In this document: piece by piece, positions 1-21,913 of the stretch
Position numbering within the stretch: position 1 is the stretch's first letter
Layout of the letters: each line of letters starts with the position of its first letter
DNA from: Paracoccus sp. MBLB3053
Lineage (GTDB): Bacteria; Pseudomonadota; Alphaproteobacteria; Rhodobacterales; Rhodobacteraceae
Reading direction: 5' to 3'
Length of the DNA: 64,000 nucleotides
Assembly (NCBI RefSeq): GCF_031822435.1
Contig: NZ_JAVQLW010000001.1
Location: 2,613,501 to 2,677,500, forward strand
The notes under the pieces: model-generated
Database searches by the model: none
The model's input: the letters and a program-made list of their open reading frames with translations, nothing else
Told to the model about the DNA's origin: nothing
Translations under genes and position numbers: made by a program

Positions 1-12
1 ATGTTATTACAT
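1..12. promoter_or_regulatory. Zur-like palindrome at window edge
   Basis: The first twelve bases, ATGTTATTACAT, match the AT-rich dyad ATGTTATAACAT typical of proteobacterial Zur (and some Fur-family) operators at 11 of 12 positions. The site is cut off by the window edge, so flanking dyad bases cannot be checked. Its presence about 170-210 bases from two further such motifs suggests a Zur-controlled intergenic region, perhaps with a divergent gene to the left. Assignment is by motif resemblance only. Confidence 0.4.
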
Positions 13-170
13 ACGTCTTCTAGGGATCAGTAAGGCGGGACGCAAGCCGCATTCGCACCACCAAGCGCCGCATCCATGGGAAAACTCGGAAAACAAGTTG
101 CGACGCGGTTCTGACCGGCGCCTGCCCGATGAGCACGGCATATAGCGCTTTGGCCGAGTTCGTCGAAATG

Positions 171-222
171 CGTAATGTTATAATGTCACTTGCCGCCAAT
201 TGATAGTTATGGAATAACATCA
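171..222. promoter_or_regulatory. Pair of Zur-like operators before the zinc block
   Basis: Two AT-rich motifs stand out in GC-rich DNA. At 173-186 lies TAATGTTATAATGT, which contains the ATGTTAT half-site and also a direct repeat of TAATGT. At 206-218 lies GTTAT-GGA-ATAAC, a perfect 5+5 inverted repeat inside a looser dyad (TGAT...ATCA, 201-222). Zur operators are known as ATGTTATANTATAACAT-like palindromes. Since the downstream genes include the zinc chaperone aztD and a ZevAB-like pair, these are probable Zur sites controlling the rightward operon. No -10/-35 pair could be assigned confidently. Confidence 0.45.
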
Positions 223-243
223 CGCGCACAGCCCGACGAGTGA

Positions 244-417
244 GTGATGGTCCCGAAAGCCGCAACGATCCCCCCAGAGATCTGCCACCCGCTCAGGAAC
301 GCGGCGGCCTCAGGGGCCCTGGCGGCCGTCGTCCTTCCCGAGGCCTCGCCGGACGATGGCCCCGCGATGCTGCGCGGCAATGCACTGGCGATCGGGGCGG
401 CTTTCGCAGCCCACTGA
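244..417 (+). CDS. Short ORF of unknown function between Zur-like sites and aztD
   Basis: A 57-codon frame opens directly after an in-frame TGA, starting GTG (244) or ATG (247), and stops 25 bases before the aztD start. It contains a proline/alanine-rich middle and ends in an alanine-rich tail; there is one Cys-His pair near residue 15. There is no clear Shine-Dalgarno sequence and no recognised family. It could be a small peptide of the zinc regulon, the decayed 3' end of a transporter gene, or not coding at all. Its only support is position: it begins about 22 bases after the inverted repeat at 206-218. Confidence 0.25.
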   Translation: MMVPKAATIPPEICHPLRNAAASGALAAVVLPEASPDDGPAMLRGNALAIGAAFAAH

Positions 418-441
418 AACCACAAACAAGGAGACCACCGG

Positions 442-1674
442 ATGTTCAGGCAATTCGCGGCAAGCGGCGTGATGGCGCTGCTGCTGAGCGGCGCGGCTTA
501 CGCCGAAAGCCATGATCACGATCATGAAGGCGGGGATGTCACGATCTACCGCGTCTTCGTGGGCGATCACGACAAGGGCCAGGTCACCGCCTTTGATCTT
601 GACGAACCCGAACATCGCTGGACTTTCCAGACCAAAGGGCAGGTCAAGATCTATTCCGTGGCGGATGGCGGCGCCGTCGCCGCGGTGCAATCCGATGATG
701 ACACCGTGACGTTCATCGCCAGCGGCGTCTCGCTCCATGCCCATGGCGATCACTCCGATATCGAAACTGCCGACCCGACTGCGATCGCCGAGACGCTGAC
801 CGGCCCGCGACCCTTTCATCTCGTCGAGCACGGCGGGAAGGTCGCGATCAATTTCGACAAGGGTGGCTATGCCCAGATCATCGACGCCCATGAACTTTCC
901 GAGGGTGCGTTGAAGTTGGCACGACTTCCGCAGGCACGCGCGCATCACGGCTTTGCCGCCCGGCTGGGTGAAAACTGGGTTTCGACCGTCGCCTCGGACC
1001 AGCCGGTCCCCGAAGGCGAATCCGTACCGCGCCTGGGCCTGCAGGCCTTTGACGCCGAGGGGCAGCCGCTTGGCGATCTTGCCACCTGCACAGCAATTCA
1101 TGGCGAGGCCTTTTCGGGCGTCTATCTTGCCGCCGGCTGCAAGGAAGGCGTGCTGATCGCCACAGCAGGTTCGGGCGGCGTGGTTTTCGAGATGCTGGAA
1201 TATCCCGCCGATCTGCCAAAGGGCGAAACCACCGGCACGCTGCTTGGCTCAAGGGGCATCCAGGTCTTCCTGGGCAATTACGGTGCCAAGGGTCTTGTTG
1301 TGGTCGATCCGGTGGACGAGCCGCATTTCACCTATGTCGAGTTGCCCTTCCGCCGCGTCGATTTCGCGCTTGATCCGGTAAGGCCCTCGGACGCCTTCGT
1401 TCTGACCGAGGACGGACAGTTGCACCGCATCAACATCCTTGAGGCCCGGATCGAGGCCAGCGCCAAGGTCACGGAACCCTACAGCATGGACGGACATTGG
1501 AACGATCCGCGTCCGCGCATCGCCATGGCTGGCGCTGAGGTCGTCGTGACCGATCCGAATGCCGGTCTCCTGCGCCGGATATCAACGGCGGATCTGACCG
1601 AAACGGGCACCATCGAGATCGGCGGAAAACCCTATAACCTTGCCGTCGTCGGCGGCAGCGGCGTCGCCCACTGA
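442..1674 (+). CDS. aztD: AztD-type periplasmic zinc metallochaperone
   Basis: 410 residues. A signal peptide (residues 1-21, ending AAYA) is followed at once by a metal-binding HxHxH cluster (His24, 26, 28) and a second His group at 99, 101 and 104. The rest is repetitive beta-strand sequence consistent with a beta-propeller, with two cysteines in one blade. In Paracoccus denitrificans AztD stores periplasmic zinc and hands it to the binding protein AztC of the AztABC importer. Here the visible downstream partner is instead a peptide/nickel/opine-class importer. The ATG at 442 has AAGGAG eight bases upstream. Zur-like motifs lie further upstream. Identification rests on N-terminal His motif, length and context. 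Confidence 0.85.
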   Translation: MFRQFAASGVMALLLSGAAYAESHDHDHEGGDVTIYRVFVGDHDKGQVTAFDLDEPEHRWTFQTKGQVKIYSVADGGAVAAVQSDDDTVTFIASGVSLHAHGDHSDIETADPTAIAETLTGPRPFHLVEHGGKVAINFDKGGYAQIIDAHELSEGALKLARLPQARAHHGFAARLGENWVSTVASDQPVPEGESVPRLGLQAFDAEGQPLGDLATCTAIHGEAFSGVYLAAGCKEGVLIATAGSGGVVFEMLEYPADLPKGETTGTLLGSRGIQVFLGNYGAKGLVVVDPVDEPHFTYVELPFRRVDFALDPVRPSDAFVLTEDGQLHRINILEARIEASAKVTEPYSMDGHWNDPRPRIAMAGAEVVVTDPNAGLLRRISTADLTETGTIEIGGKPYNLAVVGGSGVAH

Positions 1675-1737
1675 CATCCGCGCAATGTCAGCCCGCCGGC
1701 ATTCCCATCCCCCTTCCCTATCCCATGAGACAGAAAC

Positions 1738-3243
1738 ATGCTCTCCAGACTACTCGCCTCTGCGGCGCTGACCGCTGCCCTGACGAGCCCCGCCCTTGCC
1801 CATGACGGAACGGTCGACGTCATCGCCCCTTTCGAGATCAAGGGGACGGATCCGGCGACCTCGGGCAATGTGTTCATCAAGATGGACCTTGCCGAAACGC
1901 TGGTGAATGCCGATGCCCAGGGCAGGCTTGTGCCCGGCCTCGCCACCGAATGGAGCCCATCCGAGGACGGGCTGGAATGGCGCTTCCTGCTGCGCGAGGG
2001 CGTGAAATTCCATGACGGCACCCCCCTCGATGCCGAGGCCGCCGCCAAGGCGCTGACCATTGCCAGCGGCAAGCCGGGCCTTCTGGAAACCGCCCCGATC
2101 ACCGAGATCGCCGCGGATGGCGAACGAACACTTGTCGTGCGCCTTTCCGAACCCTTCGCGCCGCTGCCCGCCTTCCTGTCGGAATACCGCTCGCTGATCC
2201 TTGCGCCCGCGGCATATGATGCGGCGGGCAAAGTCACGGCGCTCATCGGCACCGGCGCCTATCGCCTCACCAAACTGGCCGCGCCCCTGCGCCTTGATGC
2301 CGTGGCCTTTGCCGATTACTGGGGCGGCACGCCCGCCATCGAGAAGGCGAGCTATCAGGCGGTCGGCCGGGCCGAGACCCGCGCCCTGATGGCCGAAAGC
2401 GGCGATGCGGATTATGTCTTCAACCTCGATCCCGCCTCGCTTGCGCGGCTGAAAGGGGTCGACAGCCTTGATGTGCTGTCGGTGCCGACGCCGCGCGCCC
2501 TGCTGATCAAGGTCAATGCCGGCCATCCCGCATTGAAGGAACCCGAGGCCCGCCGTGCCCTGTCGATGGCTATCGACCGCGAGGGCCTGGCGCATGCGAT
2601 CCTGCGCTATCCAGCCGGGGCCGACCAGATGCTGCCACCCTCACTGGCCGAATGGCATTCAAAGACCGTAGCTCCACTCATCCATGACCCCGAAGGAGCC
2701 AGGAAGATCCTTGCGGATCTGGGCTGGACGCCCGGCACGGATGGCGTCCTGACCCGCGATGGCAACCGGTTCAGCCTGACCCTGCTCACCTATCCCGACC
2801 GCCCTGAACTGCCGCTGAGCGCCGCCGTTCTGCAGCAGATGTTTGCCGAGATCGGTGTCGAGGTCACGATCGACTCGACCAATTCATCGGAAGTGCCGGT
2901 GCGCCATGCAGATGGTTCGCTGGACATCGCCCTGTTTGCCCGCAACTTCGCGCTGGTTCCCGACCCGATCGGGACCTTCCTGACCGACTATGCCCCGGTC
3001 GGCGACTGGGGTGCGATGAACTGGGACAACCCCGAATTTTCCGGTATCATCAGGGATCTGGCGCATGGCAAGGGCGGCCAGGCCGAGCGCGATCGCGCCA
3101 TCGGCATCATCCAGACCGAGCTGCCCGTCATCCCCGTCGCCTGGTATCAGCAAACCGCCGCCATATCGAAGCACATCACCGGAGCGGTGCTTGACCCTTA
3201 TGAGCGCAGCATCGGCCTGAAAGACATGCGGTGGGCCGAATGA
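1738..3243 (+). CDS. ABC importer substrate-binding protein, SBP_bac_5 (peptide/nickel/opine) family
   Basis: 501 residues with a cleavable signal peptide (about 1-21, ALA before HDGT). The mature protein has the family-5 architecture: the early segment on LAETL and final target with EDGLEWRF and KFHDGTPL, and the late RRALSMAIDREGL segment, as in NikA, DppA and CntA. It should deliver a ligand to the two permeases whose genes overlap its 3' end. The gene follows aztD by 63 bases in the same direction and lies beneath Zur-like sites, so the ligand may be zinc or a zinc-metallophore complex rather than a peptide. That is inference: the specificity of this family cannot be read from sequence alone. 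Confidence 0.85.
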   Translation: MLSRLLASAALTAALTSPALAHDGTVDVIAPFEIKGTDPATSGNVFIKMDLAETLVNADAQGRLVPGLATEWSPSEDGLEWRFLLREGVKFHDGTPLDAEAAAKALTIASGKPGLLETAPITEIAADGERTLVVRLSEPFAPLPAFLSEYRSLILAPAAYDAAGKVTALIGTGAYRLTKLAAPLRLDAVAFADYWGGTPAIEKASYQAVGRAETRALMAESGDADYVFNLDPASLARLKGVDSLDVLSVPTPRALLIKVNAGHPALKEPEARRALSMAIDREGLAHAILRYPAGADQMLPPSLAEWHSKTVAPLIHDPEGARKILADLGWTPGTDGVLTRDGNRFSLTLLTYPDRPELPLSAAVLQQMFAEIGVEVTIDSTNSSEVPVRHADGSLDIALFARNFALVPDPIGTFLTDYAPVGDWGAMNWDNPEFSGIIRDLAHGKGGQAERDRAIGIIQTELPVIPVAWYQQTAAISKHITGAVLDPYERSIGLKDMRWAE

Positions 3244-4175
3244 CGAAGGCACTTGGCTATCGCGTCCTGCAGGCGCTGATGGTGGCGCTGATCGTGGGCC
3301 TGCTGACCTTCCTGATGATGGAAGCCCTGCCCGGTGACATGGCCTTCCGTATCGCCGCCCATCGCTACGGCTATGACGCGGTCAACGCCGCTGCCGCCGA
3401 GGCGGTGCGAAGCGAACTGAACCTCGACCGGCCCGCCATCGCAGCCTTCGGTCGGTGGTTCGTCGACCTCTTGCGGCTCGATTTCGGCACCTCGGTCATC
3501 TCGGGCGCACCCGTCATCGAGGAAATCCGCCACCAGCTTGGCGCCAGCCTGCAACTTGCCGGCATTGCGCTGATGCTGTCACTGCTGATCGGGCCGCCGC
3601 TGGGGCTGCTCGCGGGGCTACGCGCGGGGGGCTGGCTGGATCGCGGTCTGCTGATCGTCTCGACCGCGCTTCGATCCGTCCCGCAATTCCTGATGGGATT
3701 GATCCTGATCGTGCTCGTCTCGATTCACCTCGGCTGGCTGCCCGCGGCCGGCTATGGCAAGGCCTCGCATTTCATCCTGCCTGCGCTGACGCTGGCGCTT
3801 GGCCTTGCCGCCGCATCGGCACGGATCACGCGCGATGCCATGGCGGGGGTCACGGCAAGCCCATTCTACGCCTTTGGGCGCTGGAAGGGGCTATCCGAGC
3901 CTCAGATGCTTCGCCGTCACGGCCTGCGTCATATCGGCGTCGCGCTTGTCACCTTCCTTGGCCTGCAATTCGCCATGCTGGTCGAAGGCGTCGTGGTGAT
4001 CGAGGCGATCTTTGGCTGGCCCGGCATCGGCCATGCGCTGGTTCATGCGATCTTCGGTCGTGACGTGCCCATGGTGCAGGGCACGGCACTGCTTCTGGGG
4101 CTGGGCTTCGTCGCCCTGAACGCGCTGGTCGATCTGGCTGCGCATTGGATCGACCCGAGGGAGAGCCGGGCATGA
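3240..4175 (+). CDS. ABC importer permease, DppB/NikB type
   Basis: 311 residues with six predicted membrane segments and the BPD_transp_1 cytoplasmic loop (around FGRWKGLSEPQMLRRHGLR) that docks to the ATPase. The N-terminal TM helix and the conserved ending GIGHALVHAIFGRDVPMVQG are typical of the B-type permease of peptide/nickel importers. A GTG at 3231 would also be in frame. The ATG at 3240 is preferred because it overlaps the binding-protein stop as ATGA, a common translational coupling arrangement repeated at the next two junctions. Confidence 0.9.
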   Translation: MTKALGYRVLQALMVALIVGLLTFLMMEALPGDMAFRIAAHRYGYDAVNAAAAEAVRSELNLDRPAIAAFGRWFVDLLRLDFGTSVISGAPVIEEIRHQLGASLQLAGIALMLSLLIGPPLGLLAGLRAGGWLDRGLLIVSTALRSVPQFLMGLILIVLVSIHLGWLPAAGYGKASHFILPALTLALGLAAASARITRDAMAGVTASPFYAFGRWKGLSEPQMLRRHGLRHIGVALVTFLGLQFAMLVEGVVVIEAIFGWPGIGHALVHAIFGRDVPMVQGTALLLGLGFVALNALVDLAAHWIDPRESRA

Positions 4176-4996
4176 GCACCGTCACGACCGATATCCCGAT
4201 TGTCGCGCATCGCGGCTGGACCGTGACGCAATGGGCGGGCGCAGTTATCGTGGCGGCGATGCTCGGCTTCGCGATCCTCGCGCCGATGGTATTCCCCGCC
4301 GACCCGCTGAAGCAGAACCTGCGCCACATCCTCGGCGGGCCGGATGCCACAGCACCATTTGGCTATGACCATCTCGGGCGTTCGCTGATGGCCCGGCTGG
4401 CGTCGGCGCTGCGGCTTTCGCTGAGCATTGCAGCTGCGGCGGTCGTGAGTTCGGCGGCCCTGGGCGTTTCGGTCGGCGTGCTCGCGGCATGGCACGGCGG
4501 CTGGGTGGACCGGACCCTTAGCCTGATCGCCGACAGTTTCCTGGCGCTGCCCGGGCTCTTGATGGTGCTGATCATCCTTGCCATCGTGCCCAGCACGCCG
4601 ATTGCCTTCTGGATCGGGCTGAGCTTGATCCTGTGGATCGAGTATTTCCGGCTCAGCCGCGCCGTCGCCAGGCGACTGCTGGTCGCGCCAGGGGTGCAGG
4701 CCTCGCGACTGCTGGGCTTCGGGCCGGTTTACATCTTCCGGCGCCATCTCTGGCCCGAGCTCGCGCCGATGCTCTTGACCGTTGCGTCCTTTGGTGCGGC
4801 AACCGCCATCATGACCATTGCCGCGCTTGGCTTTGTCAGCGTCGGCATGCGCGCGCCAACGCCGGAACTCGGTCTGATGATGGTCGAGATCCTGCCCTAT
4901 TACCGCGAAGCACCCATGGCCCTTATGACCCCCGTGCTTGCCACTTTCCTGACCCTTCTGGGGCTGAACCTGATCGCCGGAGGTCGCCGCGCATGA
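4172..4996 (+). CDS. ABC importer permease, DppC/NikC type
   Basis: 274 residues, C-type partner of the preceding permease. It has a long first helix, then the segment on FGYDHLGRSLMARL characteristic of DppC/NikC proteins, further TM helices and a docking loop near RLLGFGPVYIFRRHLWPEL. The ATG at 4172 overlaps the previous stop (ATGA); a TTG at 4145 is in frame but less likely. It should form the heterodimeric membrane channel with the B-type permease. The family imports peptides, nickel complexes or opine metallophores. Confidence 0.9.
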   Translation: MSTVTTDIPIVAHRGWTVTQWAGAVIVAAMLGFAILAPMVFPADPLKQNLRHILGGPDATAPFGYDHLGRSLMARLASALRLSLSIAAAAVVSSAALGVSVGVLAAWHGGWVDRTLSLIADSFLALPGLLMVLIILAIVPSTPIAFWIGLSLILWIEYFRLSRAVARRLLVAPGVQASRLLGFGPVYIFRRHLWPELAPMLLTVASFGAATAIMTIAALGFVSVGMRAPTPELGLMMVEILPYYREAPMALMTPVLATFLTLLGLNLIAGGRRA

Positions 4997-6459
4997 GCAT
5001 TCTGCTGAAAGCCGAAAACGTGAGCGTGCATGCCGGGGCCACTTGTCTGGTCGAGCCGGTCTCGCTGGCGCTGCAGGCGGGCCGGCCCTTCACCATTCTG
5101 GGTGAAACCGGTTCGGGCAAGAGCCTGCTTGCGCAGGCCCTGATCGGCACCCTGCCGCAGGGGCTGCGGGCCAAGGGCAGGGTCGGCATCGAAGGGCACG
5201 ATCTGGATCTGTCCCAACCGGGCCTTCATCGGCCGCTTTGGGGCCGGGTGTTGGGCATCCTGCCGCAAGAGCCCTGGCTCTCGCTCGACCCGCTGATGCG
5301 GGCGCATGCCCAGGTCGCCGAAGGCCATGCCCTGGTCGGCGGCAAATCCTGGGCCGAGGCGCGCAGGGCGGCGGATCGCGATCTGGCGGAACTTGGGCTG
5401 TCGGATGCGGGCCGGCGCCGTGCCGACCAACTTTCCGGCGGAATGGCGCAACGGCTGGCATTCGCCGCCGCACGCACCGGTGGCGCCCGCATCACGATCG
5501 CGGATGAGCCGACCAAGGGCCTTGACGTGGCCCGGCGCGACGAGGTGATCGCGCTTTTGCTGCGCGAGGTGCGGGACGGCGGCGGGCTTCTGACCATCAC
5601 CCATGATCTAGAACTGGCCCGGCGGATGGGAGGCGATCTGGCCGTGGTGCTGAAGGGCCGCGTCATTGAACAGGGACCGGCAGCCGAAGTCCTGGGAAAT
5701 CCACAGCACGACTATACCCGCCGCCTGATCGCAGCCGATCCTTCGGCCTGGCCCGACGGGAAGCGCCGCCCGGCGAGCGGAGCTGCCGTCCTGACGGGCA
5801 AGGGGCTTGGCGTCTCGCGTGACGGCAGGCGGCTTTTCGAAGGGCTGGACCTGAGCCTGCATCCTGGTGAGATTGTCGGCATCTCGGGCCCCAGTGGCTG
5901 CGGAAAGTCGACGCTTGGGGATCTGCTCCTGGGACTGGCGCGACCCGATGCCGGCGTCGTCACCCGCGCAAAGGGAATTGCCCCTGCCCGTTTCCAGAAG
6001 CTGTATCAGGACCCGCCAAGCGCATTTCCGCGCCACGTCGCCCTGGGCCGGGCTCTGGAGGATCTGGTCGGGCTTCATCGCCTGGACGGCAGCCGCATCC
6101 CGCCGCTGCTTGACCGGTTGCAGCTCTCCCCGGTTCTGCTGACGCGTCGACCGACCGACGTGTCGGGGGGAGAATTGCAGCGGCTCGCGCTGCTGAGGGT
6201 GCTGCTGCTTGATCCGGTATTTCTTTTCGCCGATGAGCCGACCTCGCGGCTGGATCTGATCACGCAGGCCGAGGTGACATGGCTTCTGGCCGAAATCGCG
6301 CGGGAGACAGGGATGGCCCTTCTGATCGTCAGCCACGACACCGACCTGATCCGCAAGACCGCCGACCGCACGGTGTTTCTGGGCGGGGAGGAACGAAACC
6401 TCTCGGGGCAAGGCGTGGCGCTGGCGGGCGAATTGGGAAAAGTGACCGAGATGGCGTAG
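4993..6459 (+). CDS. Fused double ATPase of the peptide/nickel/opine ABC importer
   Basis: 488 residues carrying two complete ABC domains in one chain. Domain 1 has Walker A GETGSGKS (37-44), signature LSGGM (147-151) and Walker B ending ADEP (170-173). Domain 2 has Walker A GPSGCGKS (299-306), signature VSGGE (390-394) and Walker B ending ADEP. Related systems often use separate D and F ATPases, so this is a natural fusion giving one polypeptide with both halves. The real start is the ATG at 4993, overlapping the permease stop as ATGA; a longer upstream frame is spurious. It would energise the importer encoded at 1738-4996. Confidence 0.9.
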   Translation: MSILLKAENVSVHAGATCLVEPVSLALQAGRPFTILGETGSGKSLLAQALIGTLPQGLRAKGRVGIEGHDLDLSQPGLHRPLWGRVLGILPQEPWLSLDPLMRAHAQVAEGHALVGGKSWAEARRAADRDLAELGLSDAGRRRADQLSGGMAQRLAFAAARTGGARITIADEPTKGLDVARRDEVIALLLREVRDGGGLLTITHDLELARRMGGDLAVVLKGRVIEQGPAAEVLGNPQHDYTRRLIAADPSAWPDGKRRPASGAAVLTGKGLGVSRDGRRLFEGLDLSLHPGEIVGISGPSGCGKSTLGDLLLGLARPDAGVVTRAKGIAPARFQKLYQDPPSAFPRHVALGRALEDLVGLHRLDGSRIPPLLDRLQLSPVLLTRRPTDVSGGELQRLALLRVLLLDPVFLFADEPTSRLDLITQAEVTWLLAEIARETGMALLIVSHDTDLIRKTADRTVFLGGEERNLSGQGVALAGELGKVTEMA

Positions 6460-6569
6460 CGTTTTCCGCCTTCGCTCTCGGAAATCCTCACCGAGTCGTA
6501 TATTGACCCCATCGCGCCCAGGAGCAATGCCGGCACAACCGCAAGGACGGGCAGTCAGGATCGGGAATT

Positions 6570-7280
6570 ATGCATCTAAGCGGAAAGTCTCACGGGCGCG
6601 GCCTGAACCGCCGGTCCATTTCACCTGTCGCCGCGCTTGCTGCGGCGGTATTTCTGTCTGCCGCGGGCTCGGCCGCGGCACATCCCCATGTCTTTATCGA
6701 CGCGGATGCGGCGTTGATATTTGACAGGTCGGGCAGGCCGGAGGCGGTGCGTGTCACCTGGACCTATGACGAATTCTACAGCCTGATGATGATCGAGGAT
6801 GCCGAGCTGGATCGCGATGGGGACGGAACGCCCGATCCTGACCGGCTCAGGGCCTTTGCCGGCCAGGATGTCGACTGGGCCGCAGGCTTTCCGGGCCATA
6901 TCCTTCTGGAGCGTGACGGCAAGCCGGTCGAGCTTGCCCCGCCCCGCGCGCATCAGGCCCATTATGTTGATGGCAGGATCGTGACCTCGCATGTCCGGCC
7001 GCTGAAGAACCCGGCTGCGCTGACGGCACAAGACGCGCTCTGGCTGCGCATCTACGATCCGGAATATTTCGTGGCCTATGATACGCCGCGCAGCCCCACC
7101 ATCGAGGGTCGGCAGGATTGCAAGGTGACGCGCCGCCCACCCGATACCAGCGGACAGAGCGAGCTGCTCGCCGCGCTACAGAACCTTGATATGGAGGCCG
7201 ATTCGATCTCCATCATGAACATGCCCGATGTTGGCATCACCTTTGCCGAAGGCTTCGAGATCAAGTGCGGCGAGCGCTGA
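6570..7280 (+). CDS. DUF1007 periplasmic protein, ZevA-like
   Basis: 236 residues. A signal peptide ends about residue 37 (SAAA) and the mature protein starts HPHVFIDAD, the hallmark of DUF1007 (COG3683) proteins. An Asp-rich stretch DRDGDGTPDPD near residue 80 resembles a calcium-loop-like motif. In Haemophilus the DUF1007/NicO pair ZevA-ZevB supports zinc acquisition. Here too the gene overlaps the NicO gene that follows by 16 bases. The 110-base gap after the ABC ATPase has no evident terminator, so it may be in the same transcript. Function in zinc uptake is inferred from homologous pairs and context. Confidence 0.75.
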   Translation: MHLSGKSHGRGLNRRSISPVAALAAAVFLSAAGSAAAHPHVFIDADAALIFDRSGRPEAVRVTWTYDEFYSLMMIEDAELDRDGDGTPDPDRLRAFAGQDVDWAAGFPGHILLERDGKPVELAPPRAHQAHYVDGRIVTSHVRPLKNPAALTAQDALWLRIYDPEYFVAYDTPRSPTIEGRQDCKVTRRPPDTSGQSELLAALQNLDMEADSISIMNMPDVGITFAEGFEIKCGER

Positions 7281-8200
7281 TCCTCGCCTCGGGGCTTCTC
7301 GCGGTTCTGCTGCTCGTGATGGTCTGGCAGCATCACGCGCAGATCGTCGCCTGGGCCACGGCCATGCAGCGCGATGCGCAGAATGGCCTTGCCCGTAGCC
7401 TGCAGGCCCTGAAAGCCGGCAATCCCGGCGCCCTGGCCAAGCTCATGGGCCTTTGCCTGGCCTATGGATTCTTTCATGCCGTCGGTCCCGGCCATGGCAA
7501 GTTCCTTGTCGGGGCCTATAGCACCTCGCGTTCGGTCCCGATCGGGCGACTGGTCTTTGCGACCGTTGCATCGTCGCTGGGACAGGCGGTCACGGCGGTG
7601 GCGCTGGTTCTTGCCGGTATCAGCCTGTTTGCGTTGTCCCGCCAACAGCTGACAACGCTGGCCGAGACGACGCTGACGCAACTGAGCCTGATTTCGATCA
7701 TGCTGATCGGGGTCTGGATCGTGCTGCGCGGGGCTGCGCGGGGCACGGGTCTTGTCGCCGCCAAGCTAGCCGCAAGTCGCCACGAACCGCCGATGACGAA
7801 CCCTGGGCATCACCACCACGACCACGCCCATCTCCGATGCCCCAGCTGCGGCCATGCCCATGCGCCCTCTGCCGACGACATTGCCATGGCCTCCGGCTGG
7901 CGAGAGCTTGCATCAATGATCCTGGCAATCGCCATTCGCCCCTGCAGCGGCGCGATCCTGCTGCTGGTGCTGACCTGGCAGATGAACATCCTTGGCGCCG
8001 GTATCGCAGGTGCCTTCGCCATGGCGACGGGCACGGCCTGCCTGACCCTTCTGGTCGCCGTCATGGGCAGTTCGCTGCGCAAGGGCGCGATGGAGGGGTT
8101 TGCCCAATCCCCGGCCCTGCGGGCGGTGGGCGCCTCGCTCGAGATTGCGGCCGGCCTGGCAGTCCTCATTCTGGCGGCCGAGGGGCTCGGGCTCGTCTGA
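7265..8200 (+). CDS. NicO-family metal permease, ZevB-like
   Basis: 311 residues, six or more predicted membrane helices. The family signature HAVGPGHGK is at residues 71-79, and a cytoplasmic or periplasmic loop is very metal-rich: four consecutive His at 182-185, further His at 187, then CPSCGHAH at 192-199. NicO/RcnA-like proteins move nickel or cobalt, while ZevB homologues next to DUF1007 proteins are linked to zinc. The GTG start at 7265 overlaps the 3' end of the ZevA-like gene, implying translational coupling. Direction of transport cannot be read from the sequence. Confidence 0.8.
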   Translation: MRRALILASGLLAVLLLVMVWQHHAQIVAWATAMQRDAQNGLARSLQALKAGNPGALAKLMGLCLAYGFFHAVGPGHGKFLVGAYSTSRSVPIGRLVFATVASSLGQAVTAVALVLAGISLFALSRQQLTTLAETTLTQLSLISIMLIGVWIVLRGAARGTGLVAAKLAASRHEPPMTNPGHHHHDHAHLRCPSCGHAHAPSADDIAMASGWRELASMILAIAIRPCSGAILLLVLTWQMNILGAGIAGAFAMATGTACLTLLVAVMGSSLRKGAMEGFAQSPALRAVGASLEIAAGLAVLILAAEGLGLV

Positions 8201-20374: not shown

Positions 20375-21913
20375 TCATGTGACGGGAAGTGCCACGAAAC
20401 GAGGCTCTCCGGCACGGCGCACCATCAGCAGGACCGACTTGCGGCCCGCTTCCCGCGCCTCCTTGATCCGCGATTCAAGATCTTCCCGCGAACCCACCGG
20501 CCGCTGTCCCGCTTCTGTAATGACATCGCCCGGAGCAAGACCTTTTTCGGCGGCCGATCCGTCGGGATCAACCGACTGCACCACCAGACCGGTCGCGTCG
20601 GATGCAAGACCCAGTTCGCCGGCGATCTCGGGGCTCATTGGCAGGAGTGTCATCCCCATCACCTCGGACGCATTCTGCTTGGTCTCGTCCGGACCGGCCG
20701 CCGAGGCGTTACCCTCTGCCACTTCCCGGCGTCCCAGCGTGATCTTCATTTCGACCGGCTTGCCGTCGCGCTGCACCACGACATCCACTGCCTCACCCAC
20801 CGGGGCATCGGCGACGCGGCGCACGAGATCGCGAGGGTCCTTCACCTCGCCCCCTGCAAAGGACGTGATCACATCACCGGCTTTCATCCCCGCATCGGCG
20901 GCAGGTCCCACGGGCACATCCGTGACCATCGCCCCCTTGGCATCCGCAAGGCCAAGCGAATCGGCGATATCCTCGGTGACTGGCTGGATCTTGACGCCAA
21001 GCCAACCGCGCCGGGTTTCGCCGAATTCTTCGAGCTGCATCACGACCTTGCTCACGACGTTCGACGCCATCGAGAAACCGATGCCGATCGAGCCGCCATT
21101 CGGCGACAGGATCGCGGTATTCACGCCAATGACCTCGCCGTCCATGTTGAACAGCGGCCCGCCCGAGTTGCCGCGGTTGATCGCAGCATCTGTCTGGATG
21201 AAATCATCATAAGTGCCGGAAAGCGCGCGGTTGCGGGCCGAAACGATCCCGGTCGAGGCCGAGAAACCCTGACCAAGCGGGTTCCCCAGCGCCAGGACCC
21301 AATCCCCGACACGGGCACGGTCGCTATCGCCGAACTTGACGAAAGGAAGCGCATCGGGACTGTCCACCTTCAGGACCGCGACATCGGTCTTGTCGTCATG
21401 GCCGACCACCTTCGCAGGCAGCGTCTCGCCCGAGTAGAATTCGATCTCGATCTCATCCGCACCTTCGATGACGTGGTTGTTCGTCACGATGAGGCCATCT
21501 GCCGAAACGACAAAGCCCGACCCCAGCGCGTTCGAGCGACGCTCGCGATTTCCGGGCTGCCCATCCGGTCCCTGAGGGAAGCCCGGGAAGCCGAATTCGC
21601 GGAACAGGTCGCTGAACGGGCTGCCTTCGGGCAGTTGCGGGCCACCGGCCAATGGCGAGGACACTGTCGAGGATGTCGTGATGTTCACGACCGCCGGGCT
21701 GACCTGCTCGACAAGGTCGGCAAAGCTTTCGGGCATGACCTGCGCCTTGCGGGCCGGACTTTCGGGCGCAACCAGCGGCTCGTTTTCATTCGCGGCTTTC
21801 TGGACCGACTCGGCCGAGGGTGCGGTCGACTGTTGAGAAAAGGCAGGTGAAACCGCCATCAACAGGGCAAGGCCGGTGGCAGAAACTAGATGACGCGTTG
21901 AGATGTTTTTCAT
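20375..21913 (-). CDS. Do/DegP-family periplasmic serine protease
   Basis: 512 residues. Signal peptide about 1-26 (PAFS-QQS), then a trypsin-like domain with the full triad: His in TNNHVIEG, Asp in DKTDVAVLKV, Ser in GNSGGPLF. Two PDZ domains follow (about 290-385 with DVPVGPAADAGMKAGDVI, and 420-510 with SVDPDGSAAEKGLAPGDVI). It should degrade or refold damaged envelope proteins. ATG at 21913 has GAAGGAGA upstream. It converges on the IalB-like gene, with a terminator between them. Confidence 0.95.
   Translation of the reverse strand: MKNISTRHLVSATGLALLMAVSPAFSQQSTAPSAESVQKAANENEPLVAPESPARKAQVMPESFADLVEQVSPAVVNITTSSTVSSPLAGGPQLPEGSPFSDLFREFGFPGFPQGPDGQPGNRERRSNALGSGFVVSADGLIVTNNHVIEGADEIEIEFYSGETLPAKVVGHDDKTDVAVLKVDSPDALPFVKFGDSDRARVGDWVLALGNPLGQGFSASTGIVSARNRALSGTYDDFIQTDAAINRGNSGGPLFNMDGEVIGVNTAILSPNGGSIGIGFSMASNVVSKVVMQLEEFGETRRGWLGVKIQPVTEDIADSLGLADAKGAMVTDVPVGPAADAGMKAGDVITSFAGGEVKDPRDLVRRVADAPVGEAVDVVVQRDGKPVEMKITLGRREVAEGNASAAGPDETKQNASEVMGMTLLPMSPEIAGELGLASDATGLVVQSVDPDGSAAEKGLAPGDVITEAGQRPVGSREDLESRIKEAREAGRKSVLLMVRRAGEPRFVALPVT

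Follow-up and report, generated by a model that had tools for sequence, protein, structure and literature searches.

In Paracoccus denitrificans, the importer genes pden1341-1344 were placed in the Zur regulon in 2017 by RNA sequencing and electrophoretic mobility shift assays (EMSA): zinc depletion of the medium raised expression of pden1338-1344 8.6- to 16-fold and of pden1341-1344 12.6- to 16-fold, and Zur bound the pden1341 promoter in EMSA (PMC5387054). The authors of that study called a Zur-controlled cluster C importer somewhat unusual and noted that cluster C transporters carry varied solutes; they left its specificity unassigned, asked whether it imports zinc and proposed a metal-binding test. 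Zinc and Zur control of this importer is therefore not new, and among the literature searched, as far as the available texts go, PMC5387054 is the only source that names a Zur-linked family-5 importer of Paracoccus. For the periplasmic zinc metallochaperone AztD, a published neighborhood study linked nearly half of the sequences to a ZnuA-family gene and found CobW genes to be frequent neighbors (PMC6689063). Here, we analyzed a 64,000-nucleotide stretch of Paracoccus sp. MBLB3053 (contig NZ_JAVQLW010000001.1, positions 2,613,501 to 2,677,500; hereafter the window), in which aztD, a family-5 importer, a DUF1007 gene and a NicO permease gene follow one another downstream of Zur-like boxes.

The window binding protein is 74% identical to a P. 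denitrificans protein that is probably Pden1341. In G025, which is P. denitrificans or a close relative, the exact boxes given for pden1338, pden1341 and pden1595 (PMC5387054, Table 7) were recovered at the zigA, importer and aztABCD operons, the first two adjoining zigA, two small genes and the importer.

Candidate Zur sites were scored with a matrix built from five P. denitrificans MAST sites (PMC5387054, Table 7), one of which lies before pden1341. Four window matches reached at least 18 bits, all within the first 220 bases (Table 1). Beyond base 223, the sole match of at least 14 bits was at 20512-20526 (14.0 bits), and the mean over ten 64-kb sequences from a first-order Markov model was 0.5 matches at that level. 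The initial annotation had described three Zur-like palindromes; all are real by matrix score, but the first belongs mainly to the divergent zigA arm, its complete site (L009:6998-7012, 22.3 bits) starting 3 bases left of the window and 14 bp upstream of zigA. The matches at 172-189 and 206-220 are one compact region upstream of aztD and, as predicted boxes, support the Zur control that had been proposed for the block. Directly before the binding-protein gene, the window carries no box of at least 10 bits, and the importer seems to rely on the promoter of aztD. Elsewhere in this genome, a box identical to that of pden4140 lies in the znuA-zur gap, and the Zur-like gene, which adjoins znuA and znuC, scores 119.6 bits against an NCBI Zur model with a cutoff of 167. 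Given the predicted sites and the published work on the orthologue, zinc- and Zur-dependent control of the block is very probable.

We then assessed whether such boxes accompany the importer in other genomes. An orthologue was found in at least 15 of 125 Paracoccus genomes and at least 7 of 385 class-wide genomes (G000 included), with up to 12 candidates scored per Paracoccus genome and up to 4 per class-sample genome; named relatives range from Pelagibacterium to Pantoea. At 28 of 30 scorable orthologous loci (32 distinct loci), a box of at least 16 bits is found no more than about 400 bp from the operon head; these comprise 15 of 16 loci from 15 Paracoccus genomes, all ten named relatives (weakest, 16.1 bits) and three of four loci in the class sample. 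By comparison, two of 28 family-5 paralogues pass (L046, 16.3 bits; L054, 19.7 bits), and the 99th percentile of 600 random 420-base segments, drawn from the same loci with orthologous ones included, was 16.3 bits. Because matrix training includes the pden1341 site, G025 is not independent, and the census without it stands at 27 of 29. Two loci, L191 and L193, were left out since a zigA match directly upstream places the operon head beyond the stretch, and L093 since it is the same plasmid stretch as L125. For G068 and L094, the score was taken at zigA, the first gene of the run; at the binding-protein gene itself they reach 7.6 and 1.2 bits. The named relatives are five loci with at least 43% identity and five further plasmid loci, 6 of 129 plasmid records having been used, and the paralogue control was drawn from 75 other loci and consists of the 28 that are alpha- or gammaproteobacterial, one of them with only 80 bp upstream.

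This census of predicted boxes, 28 of 30 orthologues versus 2 of 28 paralogues, is new here and speaks for zinc-responsive control as a trait of the importer clade. A Zur-like box in nearly all sampled clade members turns a P. denitrificans oddity into a general question, that of a zinc-related cargo for a peptide/nickel-type importer. The two passing paralogues, from Leisingera (L054) and Ahrensia (L046), whose boxes stand no more than 400 bp before the match start, are only 27-28% identical and may represent a second zinc-linked group.

We consider the best explanation, with a probability of roughly 0.4, to be a Zur-repressed zinc-starvation island in which, alongside AztD, the importer takes up a zinc chelate of outside origin. 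Under zinc-replete conditions, Zur with bound zinc would sit on the boxes that separate zigA from aztD, keeping both arms silent; once zinc is exhausted, both arms would be expressed. AztD would then gather and buffer scarce periplasmic zinc, while the binding protein would take a small ligand that bears carboxylate, with zinc on an environmental chelator the likeliest candidate. The fused ATPase would power uptake, with the importer working beside AztD rather than being fed by it, and the DUF1007-NicO pair would probably provide a further membrane route for zinc where no AztC was found.

The chaperone of this proposed island retains all seven zinc ligands of P. denitrificans AztD: the crystal-structure residues His124, 167 and 218 and His99, His102, Asp104 and His408 correspond to predicted sites at His126, 169 and 220 and at His101, His104, Asp106 and His410. 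Its score falls under the NF038015 cutoff, and this genome is one of 22 below it among the 24 Paracoccus genomes in which AztD was matched; since so many stay below and the best PDB match of this AztD is the crystallized P. denitrificans protein (6ck1), the cutoff appears strict for Paracoccus. AztC was not found in a genome-wide search at E 1e-70, which was not extended to AztA and AztB. Two PF01297 proteins of the genome were tried as AztC and rejected; they score 147.6 and 197.6 bits with the AztC model, whose cutoff is 350 and which gives two genuine AztC proteins 361 and 366 bits.

Across the 125 Paracoccus genomes, AztD occurs in 24 and AztC in 16, and all 16 AztC genomes also carry AztD. 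The remaining eight of the 24 have AztD without AztC, one of them (G075) as an AztD fragment only, and five (G030, G038, G058, G075 and G079) also lack the importer. The predicted presence of AztD without AztC in this genome, recurring in Paracoccus, is new here and shows that a view of AztD purely as the donor of AztC is incomplete. At the G030 locus (L166:8860-10693), a shortened aztA match stands directly before a full-length aztD, and no aztB or aztC match was found at the locus, which may be a snapshot of transporter loss with the chaperone kept. In a family-wide sample, AztD was present in 17 of 345 genomes. The 16 besides G000 have aztABC genes nearby in four cases (in L201 the end of aztC on a short contig, in L209 more than 3 kb away) and a zigA-type gene (at least 69% identity) nearby in seven.

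Several further arrangements of AztD were observed. A 610-codon gene annotated as ZinT on a Rhizobium sp. Q54 plasmid (L101:8983-10815) matches AztD at 66% over its first two thirds; it is apparently an AztD-ZinT fusion and has three Zur-like boxes upstream. A divergent AztD relative (30-34% identity) lies between zigA-type and DUF1826-type genes in five Rhodobacteraceae-level relatives (L204, L206-L209), and G053 (L170) has two aztABC sets facing each other with a single aztD between them.

These distributions bear on whether AztD, the importer and the DUF1007-NicO pair are independent modules that share a Zur switch, the aztD-importer adjacency being a functionless lineage rearrangement. We regard this as a serious if tentative alternative, at somewhat less than even odds; it is compatible with a zinc-chelate cargo and does not exclude the best explanation. 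In a further new observation, aztD and the importer lie within 10 kb of each other in only 2 of the 24 AztD-bearing Paracoccus genomes, this one and G090, and in none of the 16 other family genomes within the stretches examined, where several contigs were short; the five genomes with an AztC-less AztD and no importer point the same way. G090 has the importer operon and aztABCD in divergent orientation, separated by two boxes, and a Zur-like gene lies close by. Against independence, AztD is enriched among importer genomes (8 of 15 versus 16 of 110 others; Fisher p 0.0016, kinship ignored), and the window importer, lacking a box of its own, appears tied to the aztD promoter. The DUF1007-NicO pair is a more regular companion of AztD than the importer is, since DUF1007 lies near aztD at nine of the 24 Paracoccus AztD loci, accompanied by NicO at all but L160, where NicO was unmatched. 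At five of these nine loci, DUF1007 and either aztA or aztD diverge, and a Zur-like box separates them; in G058, NicO-DUF1007 and an aztD without AztC diverge, and zigA is their neighbor.

We next considered the cargo. The structure model of the binding protein (predicted local distance difference test score, pLDDT, 92.8) places its fold with NikA, YliB/GsiB and CntA, of which NikA and CntA bind metal chelates, and so supports a NikA/CntA-like binding protein. The equivalent of NikA Arg137 is Arg151, present in 114 of 120 aligned sequences, and His307 and His390 are kept in 119 and His92 in all 120. This set consists of the query and 119 of 120 listed proteins (P0095, a fusion, was dropped), the closest of 1532 and not the whole clade. 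For the binding protein and both permeases, the best-scoring named families are nickel-type, all below their equivalog cutoffs: the binding protein reaches 198.5 of 600 and 153.8 of 393 bits for NikA (NF045468/TIGR02294) and permease B 273 of 350 bits for its nickel-type equivalog. The CntA score is 113.3 of 800 bits (NF047575).

A zinc chelate as cargo is a tentative assignment with slightly under an even chance, and the following points weigh against it or the wider scheme. Proteins of this fold also bind peptides, opines, glutathione or sialic acid, so the cargo cannot be read from the fold. The column of NikA His416, essential for nickel uptake according to the title of PDB 3qim, holds mainly T, N, G and S in the 120 sequences, in a loop where the alignment is uncertain. 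The block genes include no outer-membrane receptor in a Pfam scan. The importer genes are rare at the frequencies given above, and two of the 30 orthologues, G034 (13.8 bits) and L189 (14.1 bits), fall under the box threshold. The initial annotation had suggested zinc carried as an opine-type complex: the zinc context stands, but an opine made by this bacterium finds no backing, since the proposed search for nicotianamine synthase and opine dehydrogenase genes gave no PF10100 or PF03059 match at E 1 genome-wide (positive controls were weak, with 1 and 4 of 14 control genomes) and the CntA score is low. Finally, a P. denitrificans double mutant in aztC and znuA is deficient in zinc when the medium is zinc-limited and contains ethylenediaminetetraacetic acid (EDTA) (PMC7731109). 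In that mutant, the importer evidently cannot supply enough free or EDTA-bound zinc, unless its genes were lost too, a result that fits either a specific chelate or a non-zinc cargo.

That the importer instead brings in nickel or some other metal, or a nutrient of peptide or amino-acid-like type, to the benefit of zinc-short cells is a possible but doubtful alternative. The lead of nickel-type families for all three proteins, the varied solutes of cluster C (PMC5387054) and the unrescued double mutant (PMC7731109) speak for it, whereas the sub-cutoff scores of all three, the Zur-like boxes conserved over Alpha- and Gammaproteobacteria and the several zinc genes among the neighbors argue against it.

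A direct hand-off, in which AztD, after the loss of AztC, would deliver zinc to the family-5 binding protein for import of the metal itself, is weakly supported and unlikely because the aztD-importer adjacency is so rare. The 63-bp spacing between the two genes, an AztD with intact ligands where AztC was not found genome-wide and the three conserved histidines would suit it, but the binding protein has no clear metal-site motif, AztD-to-AztC transfer is described as highly specific, with none to ZnuA (PMC6689063), AztC is a cluster A-I protein whereas the window binding protein belongs to cluster C (PMC5387054), and the double-mutant phenotype (PMC7731109) does not favor it. Also improbable is the broader proposal that the whole clade across Alpha- and Gammaproteobacteria is a dedicated zinc uptake system, of another class than the cluster A-I zinc transporters, and that in Paracoccus without AztC it took over AztD as zinc donor.

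Table 1. Predicted features of the zinc-linked block and its flank (window positions unless marked L009)
Feature	Position	Strand	Evidence
Zur-like palindrome, right part	1..15		18.0 bits; cut by window edge; belongs to the L009:6998-7012 site
Two overlapping Zur-like matches	172..186 and 175..189		19.2 and 21.4 bits
Zur-like palindrome upstream of aztD	206..220		21.8 bits
aztD, periplasmic zinc metallochaperone	442..1674	+	NF038015 376 bits (cutoff 400); PDB 6ck1 671.7 bits
Family-5 solute-binding protein	1738..3243	+	SBP_bac_5 235.5 bits; orthologue of Zur-regulated pden1341 product
Importer permease B	3240..4175	+	BPD_transp_1 119.2 bits; overlaps binding-protein gene
Importer permease C	4172..4996	+	BPD_transp_1 55.4 bits; overlaps permease B gene
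Importer fused two-domain ATPase	4993..6459	+	ABC_tran, two stretches
DUF1007 protein, signal-like N-terminus	6570..7280	+	PF06226 153.1 bits
NicO-family permease, His-rich loop	7265..8200	+	PF03824 53.8 bits; overlaps DUF1007 gene
zigA (ZigA-type COG0523 GTPase)	L009:5760-6983, left of window	-	NF038288 597.4 bits (cutoff 600)

The gene content and order of the block, running from aztD through the importer and DUF1007 to NicO on the plus strand at 442-8200, were borne out, with every gene at the position first noted. The DUF1007 protein is the sole DUF1007 match in the genome; we take it to be ZevA-type and the NicO permease to be ZevB-type. Since a 110-bp gap, with no Zur-like match of at least 10 bits, separates the ATPase gene from the DUF1007 gene, membership of the latter in the importer operon is plausible. 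The divergent arm, on the minus strand left of the window, comprises zigA and genes for a DUF1826 protein and a DUF6525 protein, and to the right of the block lie tRNA-Val and a long minus-strand frame that is presumably lon. A 56-codon reading frame at 247-417, between the Zur-like boxes and aztD, had no convincing match among the loci compared, and a second frame, of 1523 codons and to the left of the zigA arm (L009:121-4692), had no Pfam match.

In relation to known systems, the DUF1007-NicO pair resembles ZevAB of Haemophilus influenzae in its adjacent genes near zinc genes, ZevA and ZevB being, as we understand it, members of the DUF1007 and NicO families; for the Paracoccus pair, function and direction of transport are putative. 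The importer shares its fold, gene set and the Arg137 equivalent with the NikA/CntA family-5 importers, but differs from them in scoring far below their cutoffs, in not keeping His416 and in having both ATPase domains in one gene; unlike CntA systems, Paracoccus sp. MBLB3053 yielded no metallophore synthesis genes in the PF10100 and PF03059 search at E 1. With AztABCD of P. denitrificans, the block shares an AztD with all zinc ligands and Zur-like boxes, whereas AztC was not found genome-wide and a family-5 importer stands beside aztD. A further close counterpart is pden1338-1344 (a COG0523 gene, two hypotheticals and a cluster C ABC importer), described as one seven-gene operon with boxes before pden1338 and pden1341 (PMC5387054), which has the same importer, the same neighbors (zigA and the DUF1826 and DUF6525 genes) and the same type of box. 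Paracoccus sp. MBLB3053 departs from that layout in its divergent zigA arm, in having aztD as the first gene of the importer operon and in the DUF1007-NicO pair that follows the importer.

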